Assembly (NCBI GenBank): GCA_015069135.1
Contig: SVJE01000004.1
Span: 186,001-250,000, forward strand
Length of the DNA: 64,000 bases
Direction of reading: 5' to 3'
From: Oscillospiraceae bacterium
GTDB lineage: Bacteria; Bacillota; Clostridia; UBA1212; SIG427
Under the pieces are notes generated by a model. That model did no database searches. It saw nothing but the letters and a program-made list of their open reading frames with translations, and had not been told where the DNA came from. Every line of letters starts with the position of its first letter. The stretch's first letter is position 1. Shown piece after piece: positions 6,525 to 58,253 of this stretch. A program made the position numbers and the translations under genes.

Positions 6525-6542
6525 ATATTTTTATGAGAGAAT

Positions 6543-6661
6543 ACAGTGTTTTTCTGTAAAATGCAGAATCACTACATGAATATACAGTGAGTTGTCTCCA
6601 ATGGATTTGAAAACTGTATGTTTCATGTAGTGATTTTTTATTTTTTAAATAAAACACTGTA
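6543..6661. repeat. Nested inverted-repeat element between convergent genes (likely bidirectional terminator)
   Basis: Outer arms TACAGTGTTTT (6543-6553) and AAAACACTGTA (6651-6661) are perfect complements. Inside them, AATCACTACATGAA plus TATACAGT (6567-6588) pairs with ACTGTATG plus TTCATGTAGTGATT (6614-6635), broken only by a small bulge. A T-rich run follows the right inner arm and an A-rich run precedes the right outer arm, as expected for a terminator working both ways between convergent genes. The 15-mer TTATACAGTGATTTT just outside (6665-6679) recurs at 39672-39686. Confidence 0.75.
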
Positions 6662-6664
6662 ACT

Positions 6665-7402
6665 TTATACAGTGATTTTTAGAAACTTCAACATAAAACT
6701 GTATCTTTCAAGAGAAAAAGCTTTTTTGAGGATCGAATCAATATCTTTACGTTGTATTTCAGTAATTACAAGCAGCCGCTCATTCTCAAAAATGCCTGAT
6801 TGATGATATAACGTTAGTTTCTTATTCCAAGAGTTTAAATATTCTTTAGTATTTAAACCTAAGTATTCTATATATACCTCTTCTCCGTTAAGGGGACTGA
6901 TAACAGTAAAGTCCGGATAGAATATTTTATCCCCGATATATAATCTTTTTTCATAACGATATGATAATCCTAGAAAGAATAATTTGTCTGCAACCAATGC
7001 TTCAGCTCTTGAACGAACAAATTCTCCATGAATAGTTTTTTCTTGTAGCTCATCCATATAGCTGTTTTTTTCACTGTAATAAACATAGGAATCAAATTGG
7101 TAAGGCCTGAAGTTCTGAACTATATGGGTTACAGCCTTGCTGAAGTTAGGCAACATCTTTTTCCAATACATTGCTTCTTTGAAATGATCCGAATATGTTT
7201 TTTTCTTTTTCAGAATATCTATTATTTGTGAATCTTTTTCTGTGTTCAGATATTTTTGTTTGCTTTTTCCATTTATTTGTGTCTGCCAATAGTACTGTTC
7301 CTTTTTACGTGGTTTACGCACTACCAAACTACCCTCCGGCATTTCGCTCCAAATCTTTTCAGCTTCCAGAATCATCTCACACTTACCACGTACAAACTCC
7401 AT
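6665..7402 (-). CDS. Uncharacterised protein with PD-(D/E)XK nuclease-like C-terminal region
   Basis: 245 residues from ATG 7402. A longer reading frame begins at 7480, but that would overlap comEA by 62 bases; the ATG at 7402 lies 16 bases after the comEA stop with a weak AAGGA site. The N-terminal half is Lys-rich and helical (WSEMPEGSLVVRK, then KKEQYYWQTQI). The C-terminal half has a spaced pattern SRAEALVADKL, FYPDFTVIS and EVYIEYLG, matching the E...PDF...E-x-x core of PD-(D/E)XK nucleases. Function is not known. The position directly behind comEA invites, but does not prove, a DNA-uptake role. It ends inside the nested terminator repeat. Confidence 0.6.
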   Translation of the reverse strand: MEFVRGKCEMILEAEKIWSEMPEGSLVVRKPRKKEQYYWQTQINGKSKQKYLNTEKDSQIIDILKKKKTYSDHFKEAMYWKKMLPNFSKAVTHIVQNFRPYQFDSYVYYSEKNSYMDELQEKTIHGEFVRSRAEALVADKLFFLGLSYRYEKRLYIGDKIFYPDFTVISPLNGEEVYIEYLGLNTKEYLNSWNKKLTLYHQSGIFENERLLVITEIQRKDIDSILKKAFSLERYSFMLKFLKITV

Positions 7403-7418
7403 AAAATTATATGTATCC

Positions 7419-8045
7419 TTATCCCACACAGATATCCTCCTTAATGACCATAAACCTGGCCTCTTTAATTCCCGGTACATTCATAATATCTTCAATAGAA
7501 GAGAAAGGACCATTGGTCTCCCTGTAAGCAATAATTTTCTTTGCAGTACTTTCTCCTATTCCCGACAAATTACACAACTCATCAATCCCGGCAGTGTTGA
7601 TATTTATTTTCCCACCGTGGCTACCTGAAGGTTCTATAGGAGACACAAACGTATCACCCACAGCAGGCACATTTATCATAGTATTGGCATAAATAATTTC
7701 TACCATATTTATAGCCTCTGGATTAGCATTTTTCGTGAAGCCTCCTGCCAGAGAAATTACATCTGAAATCATAGAACCGGAGGAAATCTTGTACACACCG
7801 GGATTTTCAACTTCACCTACCACATATACATGAATTTCGACTGGCGGGGTTGGCGGATCGACATAAGCAGAAGGCGATACTGAAGGTGCAGCAGTGATTG
7901 TAATAACATTATTATCTTCTGTTTTGGAAAGGTAAAATCCCAATAAGACAGCAACAACCGCTACTATTCCTATAGCAACATATTTCAGATAACCGGGAAT
8001 AACAAAAATCCTACCCCATAAAGTAAATTTAATATTATTTTTCAT
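7419..8045 (-). CDS. comEA: ComEA-type helix-hairpin-helix DNA-binding protein
   Basis: 208 residues from ATG 8045, which has GGAGGTG about ten bases upstream; the longer frame to 8120 lacks a ribosome site. A membrane segment lies near residues 20-40, followed by a Pro/Ser-rich spacer, an SLBB-like domain (VYVVGEVENPGVYKI, about 75-130) and a C-terminal double helix-hairpin-helix (KININTAGIDELCNLSGIG, about 147-208). In the competence system ComEA is the membrane-tethered receptor that binds incoming double-stranded DNA outside the cell. comEC and other competence genes are not in this window. Divergent from sleB across 112 bases that hold a perfect inverted repeat. Confidence 0.88.
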   Translation of the reverse strand: MKNNIKFTLWGRIFVIPGYLKYVAIGIVAVVAVLLGFYLSKTEDNNVITITAAPSVSPSAYVDPPTPPVEIHVYVVGEVENPGVYKISSGSMISDVISLAGGFTKNANPEAINMVEIIYANTMINVPAVGDTFVSPIEPSGSHGGKININTAGIDELCNLSGIGESTAKKIIAYRETNGPFSSIEDIMNVPGIKEARFMVIKEDICVG

Positions 8046-8084
8046 GTAAAGACACACCTCCTTCTTTAGTTTAATATTAAAAAA

Positions 8085-8119
8085 TGGGAAATAAAAACGG
8101 TGGGTATGATTATTTCCCA
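8085..8119. promoter_or_regulatory. Perfect 10-bp inverted repeat between comEA and sleB
   Basis: TGGGAAATAA (8085-8094) and TTATTTCCCA (8110-8119) are exact complements 15 bases apart, in the divergent control region. The 14-mer ATGATTATTTCCCA (8106-8119) recurs in reverse orientation at 48880-48893 between cwlD and the kinase gene. Operator function is inference. Confidence 0.45.
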
Positions 8120-8157
8120 AAATAAATGTATATACTATTCAAAGAGGTGATTGCAAG

Positions 8158-13564: not shown

Positions 13565-14704
13565 ATGGTAAAAACAGTTTCTATTTTAGGTTCAACAGGG
13601 TCCATAGGCACACAGACCCTTGATGTGTTAAGAAACCTTAAAAAGCAGAATATAGAGGTGAAAGTGGTAGCCTTAGCTGCCGGAAGAAATGTGGAACTTA
13701 TTGAAGCCCAGGCAAGAGAATTTATGCCGGGGCTTGTTTCCGTTGAAAGCCCGGATGCTGCAAAAATTCTCAAAGAAAAATTGGCACCACTTGGTATCGA
13801 AGTGGCTTACGGAGAGCAGGGACTTATGGATGTAGCTACATCCGATTGTGAGATTCTGGTTACTGCTATCGTTGGAATGAAGGGACTTCTTCCCACCCTT
13901 GCTGCCATAGAAAAAGGTACAGACATTGCTTTAGCAAACAAGGAAACTATGGTAGTTGCAGGTGAGATAGTAACAGAAGCGGCTAACGCTAAAGGGGTAA
14001 AAATTTTACCGGTGGATAGTGAACACTCTGCCATTTTACAGTGCCTGACAGGCTACAACCACGGGGAAGTACAACACCTTATTCTGACTGCTTCCGGAGG
14101 CCCTTTCAGAACATGGGAGGCCGACAAAATTAAAGACGTGTCTATAAAGGATGTCTTGGCCCATCCTACATGGAAGATGGGCGGTAAAATTACCGTTGAC
14201 TGTGCCGGTATGATGAACAAAGGATTGGAAATAATAGAAGCAAGATGGCTTTTTGATATGCCGTATGAAAAAATAAAAGTGTTGGTTCATCCGCAGAGTA
14301 TAGTTCATTCTATGGTACAATATATTGATGGTGCTGTTATAGCACAGATGGGTGTGCCTGATATGAAGGTGCCCATCCAGTGGGCGCTCTCATATCCTGA
14401 AAGAGTTAATTCTGACTTTGGACGACATGATTTTACAAAGACACCTTTAACTTTTGAGGAACCGGACGAAGTTAAATTCCCATGTTTAAGGCTTGCAAGA
14501 GAAGCGGCAATTACAGGTGGCACCATGACAGCGGTTATGAACGGCGCCAACGAAATTGCAGTGGAGAAATTCTTAAAAGGTGAAATTAAATTTATGGATA
14601 TACCATACATTGTAGAAAAGGCTATGAATGCCCATACTGTAAAATACAATCCTACAGTAGAGGATGTTATTGAAGCTGATCGTATGGCAAGGAGGACTGT
14701 ATGA
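13565..14704 (+). CDS. dxr: 1-deoxy-D-xylulose-5-phosphate reductoisomerase
   Basis: Converts deoxyxylulose 5-phosphate to methylerythritol 4-phosphate with NADPH, the committed MEP-pathway step. 379 residues. The Rossmann start SILGSTGSIGTQTLDV is followed by the ALANKETMVVAG block (about 120), LPVDSEHSAI with the metal ligands (about 148-153), and TASGGPFR. Its stop overlaps the rseP start by ATGA. ispG, a later enzyme of the same pathway, lies two genes downstream, so this operon feeds UppS with precursors. Confidence 0.97.
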   Translation: MVKTVSILGSTGSIGTQTLDVLRNLKKQNIEVKVVALAAGRNVELIEAQAREFMPGLVSVESPDAAKILKEKLAPLGIEVAYGEQGLMDVATSDCEILVTAIVGMKGLLPTLAAIEKGTDIALANKETMVVAGEIVTEAANAKGVKILPVDSEHSAILQCLTGYNHGEVQHLILTASGGPFRTWEADKIKDVSIKDVLAHPTWKMGGKITVDCAGMMNKGLEIIEARWLFDMPYEKIKVLVHPQSIVHSMVQYIDGAVIAQMGVPDMKVPIQWALSYPERVNSDFGRHDFTKTPLTFEEPDEVKFPCLRLAREAAITGGTMTAVMNGANEIAVEKFLKGEIKFMDIPYIVEKAMNAHTVKYNPTVEDVIEADRMARRTV

Positions 14705-36197: not shown

Positions 36198-37481
36198 ATG
36201 GGATTATTCGGGCCTTCAAAAAAAGAGAAAGCTTTGCAAGCGGAAGTTGATAGGCTGAGTGCATTACTTTTACCGGAACAAAGGGATATTGAAAATCTTA
36301 ATAGACAGATTACTAACTTGAAATTGACAATTTTAGAATTAGAAAAAACTGCAAAAAACAGCAATGATAAAATTTCTCAATTGAACACACAATGTGTCAA
36401 GTTGGATCAAGAAATTTTAGACAAACGAAAGCAACTTGCTGTTTTTGAAGTGGATATTAATGCATTAGAGTACGGATTGTATAAACCTACTTTTGAATTT
36501 GCTAATTCCGATTTATACAAAGAAGAATTAGCAAAATTACGAAACAAGCAAAAACAATGCATTAAAAATGACGATGCTGCTTATGGTAATACAAATTGGC
36601 AGGTTAATGGTAGTGCTTCTCAAGGGCGTACAATGGTAAATAATTATAAAAAATTATTACTAAGAGCTTTTAATGTTGAATGTGATGATATAGTTGCAAA
36701 TGTAAAAGTTTCAAATTTAGATCGGTCAATTGAAAGAATTGAAAAGATTAGCGAACAAATTTCAAAACTTGGAAAAACAATGTCAATTGGAATTTCTCCG
36801 GGGTATGTGCGATTGAAAATTGATGAAGTTAAACTTGCTTTAGATTACCAGCAAAAGAAACAAGAAGAAAAGGAATTGCAGAAAGAACTAAGAGCGCAAG
36901 AACGAGAAGAAGCAAAAGTTCAGAAAGAGATTGAGGAAGAAAGAAAAAAGCTTATAAAGGAACAGACCCATTATGAAAATGCCTTAAAGACAATTTTGGC
37001 GCAGATTGAAAAGAATGGTGCAACAGATGAACTGTTAGAGAAAAAGGTACAATTAGAGAGTCAAATTACTGACACTTTAAAAGCTATTGAAGATGTTGAT
37101 TATAGAGAAGCTAATCGTAAAGCAGGATATGTTTATATCATAAGCAACATTGGTGCTTTTGGCGAAAATGTTTATAAAATTGGTATGACGAGAAGGTTGG
37201 ACCCACAAGAACGTGTGGATGAATTAGGTGATGCATCAGTTCCTTTTCAGTTTGATGTACACGCCATGATTTTCACAGAAGATGCACCTGGATTAGAGAC
37301 GGCATTACATAATGCTTTTGAGGCAAAGAAATTGAATAAAATCAATACACGTAGAGAGTTTTTTGCTGTTTCTTTGGAGGAGATAAAAGCTGAAGTTCGA
37401 AAGAATTTTGGCAAAACAGTCGAATGGATTGACATACCTGAAGCTGAACAATACAGGCAATCACAATTAATAAACAAATAA
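36198..37481 (+). CDS. DUF4041 and T5orf172 (GIY-YIG-like) domain protein
   Basis: 427 residues. An N-terminal coiled coil (about 8-85) is followed by a DUF4041-like middle region (about 90-210), a second charged coiled coil (about 215-305), and a C-terminal T5orf172 domain (about 312-410). The last begins GYVYIISN and continues VYKIGMTRR, the pattern of GIY-YIG nucleases. The family is common in phages and mobile islands and may bind or cut DNA; its function is not settled. More AT-rich than its neighbours, it has its own promoter and a perfect terminator and sits directly behind a tRNA cluster. No integrase is present. This suggests an acquired single-gene cargo. Confidence 0.8.
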   Translation: MGLFGPSKKEKALQAEVDRLSALLLPEQRDIENLNRQITNLKLTILELEKTAKNSNDKISQLNTQCVKLDQEILDKRKQLAVFEVDINALEYGLYKPTFEFANSDLYKEELAKLRNKQKQCIKNDDAAYGNTNWQVNGSASQGRTMVNNYKKLLLRAFNVECDDIVANVKVSNLDRSIERIEKISEQISKLGKTMSIGISPGYVRLKIDEVKLALDYQQKKQEEKELQKELRAQEREEAKVQKEIEEERKKLIKEQTHYENALKTILAQIEKNGATDELLEKKVQLESQITDTLKAIEDVDYREANRKAGYVYIISNIGAFGENVYKIGMTRRLDPQERVDELGDASVPFQFDVHAMIFTEDAPGLETALHNAFEAKKLNKINTRREFFAVSLEEIKAEVRKNFGKTVEWIDIPEAEQYRQSQLINK

Positions 37482-37524
37482 ATATAAAGTGAATTGGTTT
37501 TCAAGGTTAGTTCTAATATATTTT

Positions 37525-37568
37525 CAATCAAAAAGGAACAGAGTTGCGGCTTTGTTCCTTTTTGATTG
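37525..37568 (+). terminator. Long perfect terminator after the T5orf172 gene
   Basis: A 16-bp perfect stem, with CAATCAAAAAGGAACA (37525-37540) and its exact complement (37553-37568). The right arm contains the T run, and the arm composition would allow termination from either side. Confidence 0.85.
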
Positions 37569-37586
37569 AAAGACAGTTGCTTTTTT

Positions 37587-37797
37587 TGCTACTACTAAAC
37601 AACAAAAAGAAGAGCGCAACAGTAGGAATTACACTACTAAACCTCTTAAAATGAAAGCGTTAGTAGTTGAAACCGGGCTTTTTACCATCAAAATGGGATG
37701 TTTTTACCAGAATTCAACTACTAATTTCTGTTTAAATTGGAAGAATAGTAGTTGAATTACTACTAACTATAAACATTTTACCCAAATAGTAGTAACA
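37587..37797. repeat. Intergenic array of inverted CTACTAA words (no gene in 37482-37905)
   Basis: The word CTACTA(A) or its complement occurs about seven times in 210 bases. Pairs include: outer TGCTACTACTA (37587-37597) with TAGTAGTAACA (37787-37797); TTAGTAGTTGAA (37660-37671) with TTCAACTACTAA (37713-37724); the same middle arm also with TAGTAGTTGAA (37746-37756); and TTACTACTA (37757-37765) with TAGTAGTAA (37787-37795). Several pairings are mutually exclusive. The 11-mer GGAATTACACT (37625) is shared with the element at 41779. Confidence 0.65.
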
Positions 37798-37905: not shown

Positions 37906-39591
37906 ATGTCATCGGAGAACATAATGGAATTAATAGGAAGTCTGGTATGGCTTCTTGCCGGAGTGGGTGTATTCATTGTAGGTATGAATTTTTTAAGTGA
38001 CGCCTTGGAGAAAAGTGCCGGCAGCGGAATGAAAAGATTACTTGAGAAAATAAGCAACAACCGTTTTTCAGGAGTTGGAATAGGTGCAGGTGTAACAGCC
38101 ATTATACAAAGTTCATCTGCCACATCAGTTATGGTTATAGGTCTTGTAAACGCAGGTGTTATGACACTTATGCAGGCAACACCAATTATCATGGGTGCCA
38201 ACATCGGTACCACTATAACAGGTGTACTTGTAGCTCTTAAAAATGATTATTTCGATATGTTAATGTATCTTCTTGCCTTTGCAGGAGTTATGATGGGATT
38301 CTTCAAGAAGGAGAAGATTAAACTGGCAGGTAGCCTTTGCTGTGGTCTTGGCCTTATATTCGTAGGCCTTGATATTATGAGCAGTGAACAGGCTTTTGGA
38401 AATGAATTGGTAAAAGGAATGTTTCAGGGGATTTTTGAAGTAGTGGAATTTCCGCCATTACTTATACTGATAGGAGCTATTTTTACCGGTCTTATTCAGA
38501 GTTCATCAGCAGCAACCGGTGTTGTGATTACTATGGTAGGTACAGGCATTTTACCATTGGAACTTGCATTGTTTATTGTGCTTGGTGCAAACATCGGTAC
38601 TTGTGTAACAGCACTTTTAGCATCCGTTGGTGCAAAAGCAAATTCCAAGAGGGTTGCCTTGATACATTTTACGTTTAATGTTATAGGTACGGTAATCTTT
38701 ACAACTTTTATATGGATATTTAAGGAACCCGTTGTAAATCTTCTTGTGTCGTGCTTCCCGGGCAGCGATCCAATGTCCTTACAAATGAGAGTGTCTTTAT
38801 TCCATGTAATATTTAATGTAACTACAACCTTGTTATTGTTACCTTTTGTTAAGCAGTTGGTAAATTACTCCTGTGCAGTTATTAAGGACAAGAAAACTGA
38901 TGAAAAAGTGCGTACACTTAAATATGTTGACGAAAGACTTTTAACTACACCTTCAATTGCTTTAATGCAGGTTAAAAAGGAAATGGACTATATGTTATCT
39001 TTGGTAGAAGAAAATACAAAACTTTCTATGGTGGCGCTGGAAAAAGGTACTCTTGAACACAGCGAAAAAATAGCAGAGAACGAAGCTGTTATTGACTTTA
39101 CGAACAGTGCTTTAACAAAGTTTTTAATTGAAATTTCTTCTACAAATGTTGAGCAAAGTGACGAGCGTGTTATTGGTTCATATTTCCATGTGCTTAATGA
39201 CCTTGAACGTATAGGGGACCATGCTGAAAATTTCCATGAAATTGGTGAAGAGATGCATTCTAAAGAAATTGTTTTCTCCGAGAAGGGTAAGGAAGATATA
39301 ATCAGAATGAGTGAAAAGGTTATGCGTATGTTTGCAATTGCCAAGGATGCCTTTGAGAACCTTAACAGAGATAACCTGGCAGAACTTACTTCTCTTGAAA
39401 ACGAAGTTGATGCAATGAAGAAGGAACTTTCTAATAATCACTTTATGCGTTTGGCTGAGGGTAACTGTAAGATAGAAGTAAGTCCTTACTATTCTTCTAC
39501 TGTAGTTGGTTTTGAGCGTGTGGCTGACCACCTGGTAAATGTGGGTTACAGTATTGTTAACCCTACCGGTTCTCAGAAAGAAACTGAATAA
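37906..39591 (+). CDS. Na+/phosphate cotransporter family protein with PhoU-like tail
   Basis: 561 residues. Eight or more membrane helices form two Na_Pi_cotrans repeats, each with a QSSSA motif: QSSSATSVMVIGLVNAG (about 65-81) and QSSSAATGVVITMVGTG (about 198-214). A PhoU-like helical domain occupies about 340-550. The family (NptA-like/YjbB-like) exports or imports phosphate with sodium. GAGAGGAG precedes the ATG. It stands alone between an inverted-repeat array and its own terminator. Confidence 0.9.
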   Translation: MSSENIMELIGSLVWLLAGVGVFIVGMNFLSDALEKSAGSGMKRLLEKISNNRFSGVGIGAGVTAIIQSSSATSVMVIGLVNAGVMTLMQATPIIMGANIGTTITGVLVALKNDYFDMLMYLLAFAGVMMGFFKKEKIKLAGSLCCGLGLIFVGLDIMSSEQAFGNELVKGMFQGIFEVVEFPPLLILIGAIFTGLIQSSSAATGVVITMVGTGILPLELALFIVLGANIGTCVTALLASVGAKANSKRVALIHFTFNVIGTVIFTTFIWIFKEPVVNLLVSCFPGSDPMSLQMRVSLFHVIFNVTTTLLLLPFVKQLVNYSCAVIKDKKTDEKVRTLKYVDERLLTTPSIALMQVKKEMDYMLSLVEENTKLSMVALEKGTLEHSEKIAENEAVIDFTNSALTKFLIEISSTNVEQSDERVIGSYFHVLNDLERIGDHAENFHEIGEEMHSKEIVFSEKGKEDIIRMSEKVMRMFAIAKDAFENLNRDNLAELTSLENEVDAMKKELSNNHFMRLAEGNCKIEVSPYYSSTVVGFERVADHLVNVGYSIVNPTGSQKETE

Positions 39592-39633: not shown

Positions 39634-39686
39634 TACAGTGATTTTTGAAATTTTGATGAATTACTGTAAGATTATACAGTGATTTT
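39634..39686. repeat. Short TACAGTGATTTT repeat pair
   Basis: TACAGTGATTTT occurs at 39634-39645 and 39675-39686 as direct repeats, with the partial complement AATTACTGTA between them (39659-39668). The 15-mer TTATACAGTGATTTT (39672-39686) is identical to 6665-6679 beside the first nested element. Confidence 0.6.
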
Positions 39687-39783
39687 CTGTGTCCCCCAAA
39701 AACACTACAACATCGAATTCAACGAGAGGTAAATTGACTTTTTTTAGAATTTAATATATATATACTAAAGAGGTGAAAGTTTT

Positions 39784-41778: not shown

Positions 41779-42005
41779 GGAATTACACTGATGTACCTTT
41801 AAAAATTAAATGATTTGTCAGTAATTACACTGCTGTTAGTCTGTTAAAATATGGAGATAGCAGTGTAATTTCATGTTTTCAAAGGTAAAATGGAGCTTTT
41901 TCAGGGGTAATAAAGACTTTTTACACTGACTTTTTCTTCAAAATCAAGGCTCTGTCAGTGTAATTACTGCTAAATTGGATAAAGTTTTTGAAAACAGCAG
42001 TAATA
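41779..42005. repeat. Intergenic array of inverted ATTACACTG words (no gene in 41774-42100)
   Basis: CAGTAATTACACTG (41819-41832) is the exact complement of CAGTGTAATTACTG (41956-41969). Two competing local hairpins use the same arms: AATTACACTGCT (41823-41834) with AGCAGTGTAATT (41859-41870), and TTACACTGAC (41921-41930) with GTCAGTGTAA (41954-41963). Another copy, GGAATTACACT, lies at 41779. The long pairing excludes the two local ones, so the transcript could take two states. Confidence 0.65.
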
Positions 42006-57960: not shown

Positions 57961-58253
57961 AAAATAAAAATACACCCTCATCTCCGGCTTTATGCAAGAG
58001 ACGAAAGTGTTAACTTCCGCGGTACCACTCTTATTGGTAAACAATACCCACTTTACGGCATCGATATAATGCCTTTCCCTTGATAACGGTGGAATTCTCC
58101 GTCCGCCATTACTTATGATATAACGTTCTTGGCGGAAGCTCCGGGGTGAGTATCGGATTATTTCCATCACTGTCTTGCACCAACCGACAGCTCTCTGCAA
58201 GGTGGTAAAATAATTCTTGGTCCCCATCAAAGCTTTTACATTTTTTAGTTATG
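57961..58253 (-). promoter_or_regulatory. T-box riboswitch leader, probable leucine (CUC) specifier
   Basis: Read on the minus strand. Stem I base AAGCT/AGCTT and GGGG/CCCC; specifier loop before ACCCCGGAGC with CTC at 58150-58148; helix ATTATTT/AAATAAT; AGAGAG bulge; distal helix CTGTC/GACAG with loop GGTTGGTGCAA. The T-box core AAGAGTGGTACCGCGG lies at 58032-58017. The antiterminator pairs AAGAG with CTCTT (58000-57996). The competing terminator pairs ACACTTTCGTCTC (58010-57998) with GAGATGAGGGTGT (57984-57972), then a T run. CUC is a common leucine specifier; ACU (Thr) is the weaker alternative register. Confidence 0.9.

Follow-up and report, generated by a model that had tools for sequence, protein, structure and literature searches.

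The window, which is the whole stretch of 64 kb that was analysed, contains at positions 37591-37793 an array of short inverted words designated array C. The array is composed of eight half-sites that alternate strictly between forward and reverse orientation and form four inverted-repeat units of 35-36 bp each. Within the units, inverted ACTACTAAA-type half-sites flank a spacer that is not conserved. The starts of consecutive units are separated by 42, 84, and 42 bp.

37591-37626, no strand: array C unit 1, half-site ACTACTAAA, spacer, degenerate inverted half-site AACAGTAGG
37633-37667, no strand: array C unit 2, ACTACTAAA and GTTAGTAGT
37717-37752, no strand: array C unit 3, ACTACTAAT and AATAGTAGT, starting 84 bp past the start of unit 2
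37759-37793, no strand: array C unit 4, ACTACTAAC and AATAGTAGT

A terminator-like inverted repeat with a T-run (37522-37571) precedes the array, and a transporter gene (37906-39591) starts about 110 bp downstream of it. The gene upstream of the array (36198-37481) encodes a product with DUF4041 and T5orf172 domains, the latter of which we take to be GIY-YIG-like; no link of this gene to the array was shown. Rfam has no gathering-level match at array C, and all permissive matches are under the gathering scores. Elsewhere in the window, Rfam identifies a T-box leader on the reverse strand (57994-58239, 118 bits).

The sequence-only reading had described the region 37587-37797 as an array of about seven copies of a word, in both orientations, that form competing pairings. 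The existence of the array beyond chance is borne out: the segment 37572-37800 holds 18 inverted 8-mer pairs, compared to a mean of 2.4 in dinucleotide shuffles, and none of 1000 shuffles reaches 18. The commonest 8-mer, counted on both strands, occurs five times, which is reached in 5 of 1000 dinucleotide shuffles. Both orientations of the word are present, but the half-sites number eight. Similarly, the 12-bp perfect pair between 37660-37671 and 37713-37724 exists, whereas its rival for the same arm (37711-37723 with 37746-37758) is 13 bp long and not 11 bp. Such competition arises automatically, because eight near-equivalent half-sites alternate, so that a forward word has all of the reverse words as possible partners. 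The 11-mer that had been noticed in common with the region 41779-42005, GGAATTACACT, is found at 37625 and 41779; it is the flank of one common kind of half-site and no additional element. The two regions do share one design, with a similar layout and spacings near 42, 95, and 42 bp in the second region.

Scanning for repeated words without a filter produced too much noise, and scans for the unit geometry were used instead. A word-agnostic geometry scan of the 64-kb window yields four arrays clearly over shuffles (at 6542, 37590, 39634 with two units, and 41787), and nothing else in the window stands clearly above shuffles. The arrays other than array C, and the gene that adjoins one of them, are listed below.

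41787-42001, no strand: array A, word ACTGMYAAA, four units at 41787, 41829, 41925, and 41966
6542-6703, no strand: array B, word TRYAGTGWTTT, units at 6542, 6583, 6626, and 6668, adjoining a nuclease gene
39634-39709, no strand: two-unit array with the B word, directly after the transporter gene 37906-39591
6665-7429, reverse strand: gene of a PD-(D/E)XK-type protein of about 254 amino acids from the GTG start at 7429 (open frame to 7480), one of seven paralogs

The words of arrays A and B recur in the genome, for which the assembly comprises 1.90 Mb in 11 contigs and is 92.7% complete. BLAST with array A identified further A copies, and the junction word CAGTAATTACACTG and its reverse complement lie exactly 137 bp apart at seven places. 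In the seven copies, the half-sites ACTG-MY-AAA occupy fixed positions, with one or two sites off by one base in two copies. The identity of the copies is 73% in the word columns, from which the shifting fifth half-site is excluded, and 33% in the other columns, where 30% is expected from composition. The loops of the solo copies are not alike, and recent copying is therefore not visible. Array B likewise has dispersed siblings: its word pattern, with spacers of 10-18 bp allowed, occurs at 14 places, 13 of which are within six B arrays and all of which have spacers of 15-17 bp, and the backward control of the pattern has no occurrences. The use of array C as a DNA query against the same genome returned nothing useful.

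A fixed-geometry scan of 864 kb (about 45% of the genome) detected 24 places above the best shuffle (25.2). We counted 21 of the 24 as arrays, including one of only two units (L119:12313); two looked coding (L117:9832 and L113:4073), and one was unread (L062:3088). The best scores of decoy geometries were 33.6 and 29.2, compared to 75.6 for the real geometry, and several of the decoy matches were the same arrays in a shifted register. Further words found in the 864 kb are D (TCGCCGACAAA), E (TCCWACCT), F (TGYTGTAAAA), and G (CCAACCCA). The arrays are intergenic, although some extend a few tens of bases into the end of a gene. This bacterium carries about two dozen evenly phased, putative protein-docking arrays. 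The proposal of a family with private words and a common architecture holds within the window and genome-wide, and the reading as independent private words that lack a common pattern was rejected. At one D locus (L113:5737-6400, contig C7, about 125.7-126.4 kb), the word is amplified into about a dozen tandem repeats of approximately 53 bp, or five helical turns. A strict detector applied to stretches of four relatives (307 kb) gave top matches that were coding or of low complexity, and the two-junction pattern had no matches across 84,980 genomes.

The words had been proposed to act as a two-state nucleic-acid switch, in which RNA or single-stranded DNA would adopt alternative hairpins formed by the words. 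The two arrays on which the proposal was based do fold as RNA better than shuffles (z of -4.8 and -4.5), an energy for which the inverted words alone suffice. However, the two arms of a unit carry the same variable dinucleotide (AC, CT, AT, CC, or AG within the A word) in 9 of 28 units, and the shuffle mean is 9.2. The agreement is at chance level, which indicates that base pairing is not the conserved property. Linker lengths, in contrast, are quantised and differ by whole helical-turn steps. The periodicity over all distinct unit spacings peaks at 10.5 bp, with R reaching 0.68 in this genome and 0.59 elsewhere (22 arrays each), compared to 0.02-0.24 in 16 shuffled sets; no p-value is claimed for this periodicity, because the spacing lists hold a few chance units and spacings within one array are not independent. 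Spacings at multiples of 10.5 bp are as for proteins bound to one face of double-stranded DNA. The sharing of words between dispersed loci and the association of word families with a protein family, described below, further oppose the switch, which we consider most improbable. An RNA switch was rejected on the missing covariation of the arm flavours and the lack of a gathering-level Rfam match. Junctions between units can resemble the 11-6-11 core of a recombinase site, but a Xer/dif reading of the 6-bp junctions is improbable, in that the inverted-repeat unit keeps its length and the junction does not.

The starting clue to the protein was that the reverse-strand open reading frame beside array B resembles the one beside an A array. 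A protein search of the genome identified seven paralogs that are 29-37% identical, and a profile search to E = 1 returned the same seven. The proteins are formed of roughly 250 amino acids, with an N-terminal strand-helix domain followed by a PD-(D/E)XK-type nuclease domain. Each of these seven diverged paralogs adjoins an array with its own word, overlapping it or at most 272 bp away; the words are B, E, H (CCACCCC), D, I (CCCTA-type), A, and G. Some of those words also occur in further solo arrays, positioned elsewhere between genes. The chance of an array near any one gene is about 4%, as estimated from about 21 arrays per 864 kb. The arrays are on one side only of each gene, three at the 5' end and four at the 3' end. 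Array B, which the 3' end of its nuclease gene overlaps, lies between convergent genes. The same nuclease gene starts within the 3' end of another reverse-strand frame (7419-8120), presumably comEA, and from the position of this start the two are probably co-translated. In contig C6, a gene of a XerC/D-like tyrosine recombinase (L151:607-1461) directly adjoins the nuclease with the CCACCCC array.

Six of the seven nuclease genes are preceded by a promoter-like motif, CGACGGACA, with a TATRRT-like box about 17 bp further on (for example at C2:140158, C4:194987, C6:50508, and C1:49678). The motif occurs six times in the sampled 864 kb, four of them before nuclease genes, and its sharing suggests co-regulation of these genes. 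For arrays C and F, the assembly contains no cognate paralog, and there is no nuclease-gene relic near array C. The array C word CTACTAAA is found again beside a homolog in another genome, in the L189 array (TTCTACTAAA, the best match of 30 words). This suggests that a cognate protein of the L189 kind once served array C, or does so from the unassembled part of the genome. Array C is a solo array, and its cognate gene would be lost or unassembled.

The AlphaFold2 model of the protein (pLDDT 85.9, pTM 0.76) consists of a helix, a three-stranded sheet, a long helix, and the nuclease domain. The fold of the nuclease domain matches the catalytic domain of I-Bth0305I (Z 9.5, rmsd 2.7, 89 residues), TnsA (Z 8.5, rmsd 3.5, 112 residues), and Bax1 (Z 8.2, rmsd 3.3, 97 residues). 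In the numbering of the L154 open frame, residues E207, E224, and D237 do not vary among 38 homologs, and E252 is retained in 37 of them; the truncated L190 and L168 are omitted from the count. The N-terminal part in isolation is also predicted confidently (pLDDT 90.2), and its fold matches are weak: prefoldin-like helices at Z 5.5 and Sac7d-like sheets under Z 4. A profile search of the sequences of solved structures gave weak coiled-coil matches only. The array-B protein has no match in Pfam and, in NCBIfam, a single Bax1 match far under the cut-off, and the array-A protein has only a sub-threshold match to ImmE5 in Pfam.

In PADLOC, the C-terminal nuclease domain matches PDC-S68 and similar candidate defence proteins with E of 1e-20 to 1e-32. 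The nuclease might accordingly attack invading DNA while the array titrates or restrains it in the host, and the many paralogs per genome would agree with such a role. However, the match is confined to the nuclease domain, and full-length homologs were found in none of the viral contigs, plasmids, or phages searched, which makes a defence or decoy role unlikely. Searches of viral contigs returned nothing useful.

The array-nuclease pairing is also present in other bacterial phyla. A scan of 84,980 species genomes identified 14 homolog loci, in Candidatus Colinaster, a Firmicutes MAG, Treponema, Fibrobacter, and Clostridia-type MAGs. Scanning combined with visual inspection shows arrays at eight of them (L156, L157 with two units, L158, L160, L161, L162, L164, and L168), and the other six have no array or no clear one (L159, L163, L165, L166, L167, and L169). 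Treponema bryantii has TCCGACTTAAC units that are 95 and 84 bp apart, and no solo arrays with the exact pattern; Fibrobacter succinogenes has four ACAGGCCAAAG-type units at distances of 85 bp.

Within the class, homologs with E <= 1e-15 are encoded in 27 of 391 genomes, including this one, and many genomes have six or more, with at most six candidates scored per genome. Among 28 homolog loci from other genomes of the class, 17 exceed the best of 252 shuffles, and 11 have no array above the threshold. The best shuffle (>= 43.6) is also exceeded by six of 74 control windows. Of the four of these that were read, three look like arrays and come from a genome with at least six homologs (G026), and one is doubtful (G009). 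The array words differ from locus to locus, except for AGTGATACCA in the sister species L181/L205. At one locus of G026 (L146, around 13700-14260), two arrays with the words GTCTAGCAAA and TTCTTAAAAA are interleaved.

The positions of the arrays relative to the genes bear on the main rival explanation, that the arrays are operators to which the protein binds cooperatively without cutting, regulating its own gene and the neighbours of solo arrays. Of the 17 above-threshold arrays elsewhere, 14 are on the 5' side of the homolog gene; cooperative operators typically show helical phasing; and arrays C and A1 are upstream of transporter genes. The operator explanation does not fit as well with this genome, where four of the seven gene-linked arrays are at the gene 3' end and array B is between convergent genes, or with the retention of the nuclease residues in 37-38 of 38 homologs. 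We regard it as possible, though doubtful.

Word similarity tracks protein similarity among 30 proteins (0 of 2000 permutations), but the overall correlation is weak (Spearman 0.13) and stems from a small number of close pairs. The comparison used consensus words typed from the arrays, and L201 was omitted from it and from the spacing sets. The Treponema loci L158 and L161 have both similar words and similar proteins. In the syntenic pair L181/L205, the number of array units differs, while the flanks are 93-97% alike and the gene 86%. Similarity between the syntenic loci L180 and L185 is about 88% in the nuclease half and far lower in the N-terminal half and in the array region; L180 has no array left above the threshold. 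The gain or loss of units between L181 and L205, together with the tandem amplification of the D word, might indicate that slippage and quasipalindrome correction create and homogenise inverted words without any function. Such a mutational by-product would not be expected to have an exact unit length and 10.5-bp phasing, to be linked to one gene family in several phyla, or to conserve words and not loops, and we give this explanation very little credence.

The unit of the arrays consists of two inverted words of about 10 bp and a spacer that is free in sequence and fixed in length, and the units are whole helical turns apart. We predict, with a probability of about 0.65, that the arrays are dimer-docking sites, four of them in array C, for a sequence-specific PD-(D/E)XK-type protein. 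The fast-evolving N-terminal domain would read the word. One dimer would bind to each unit and bring its two nuclease domains together above the spacer, as a TALEN does, and four dimers may assemble on one face of the DNA. With less confidence, the nuclease and its repeats may work in the manner of RAYT and REP: nicking or cutting at the arrays followed by repair could renew, amplify, and spread the cognate sites, and the word and its reader might change together.

PMC2817692 describes RAYT (TnpA-REP) as a fast-evolving gene beside cognate extragenic palindromes, with copies elsewhere, several private families per genome, and gene and repeat changing together. The array-nuclease system similarly pairs a fast-evolving gene with its own repeats, more copies of which are positioned elsewhere, and has several private words; co-change and fast evolution of the gene are seen in a few close pairs. 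The two systems differ in the protein, since RAYT is a tyrosine (HUH/Y1) transposase related to IS200/IS605 and the array-linked protein is of the PD-(D/E)XK type. A RAYT gene is placed between two inverted REPs with a GTAG/CGTC foot, whereas the arrays are one-sided and no such tag was noted. Unlike REP, the array units are long-spaced inverted repeats phased by helical turns, and 1-7 copies per word were seen in arrays, compared to more than 100 per genome for REP.

The homing endonucleases of the I-Bth0305I type (PD-(D/E)XK / EDxHD) and TnsA of Tn7 share the fold of the nuclease domain. However, the array-linked gene is free-standing, was not seen in an intron or intein, and adjoins a multi-unit array of sites. 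Unlike for TnsA, no TnsB/C-like partner was noticed in the flanks that were read, and the arrays are symmetric units and not transposon ends. The artificial TALEN and FokI fusions use inverted half-sites and a spacer of free sequence and fixed length beneath a nuclease dimer. The array system differs from them in being natural, in its four units in phase, and in its DNA-reading domain, and its cutting is putative. The arrays are distinct from CRISPR arrays in that the half-sites alternate in inverted orientation and are not direct repeats with unique spacers, and the neighbouring genes that were read are not recognisably cas. The array-nuclease pairing appears undescribed: no description was found in the open-access literature searched (PubMed Central).

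The intergenic repeats, previously unexplained, are now tied to a protein family that is unnamed in the libraries searched and has matched protein-word pairs in many genomes. These pairs form a natural data set on the specificity change of a DNA-reading domain. Binding and cleavage are simple to test, because the words, the spacer length, and the cognate proteins are predicted. The family may provide new modular site-specific DNA-binding or cutting domains. More tentatively, it might be a natural family of modular site-specific nucleases, each formed of a variable DNA reader and a conserved nuclease and having its own phased target array. The word would diversify faster than its neighbourhood, and the nuclease would renew the array and seed others elsewhere in the chromosome. 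The family would then be a double-stranded-DNA counterpart of RAYT/REP that is distributed among several phyla of gut and rumen bacteria, and would arrive at the RAYT/REP arrangement by a second route, unrelated to the first.
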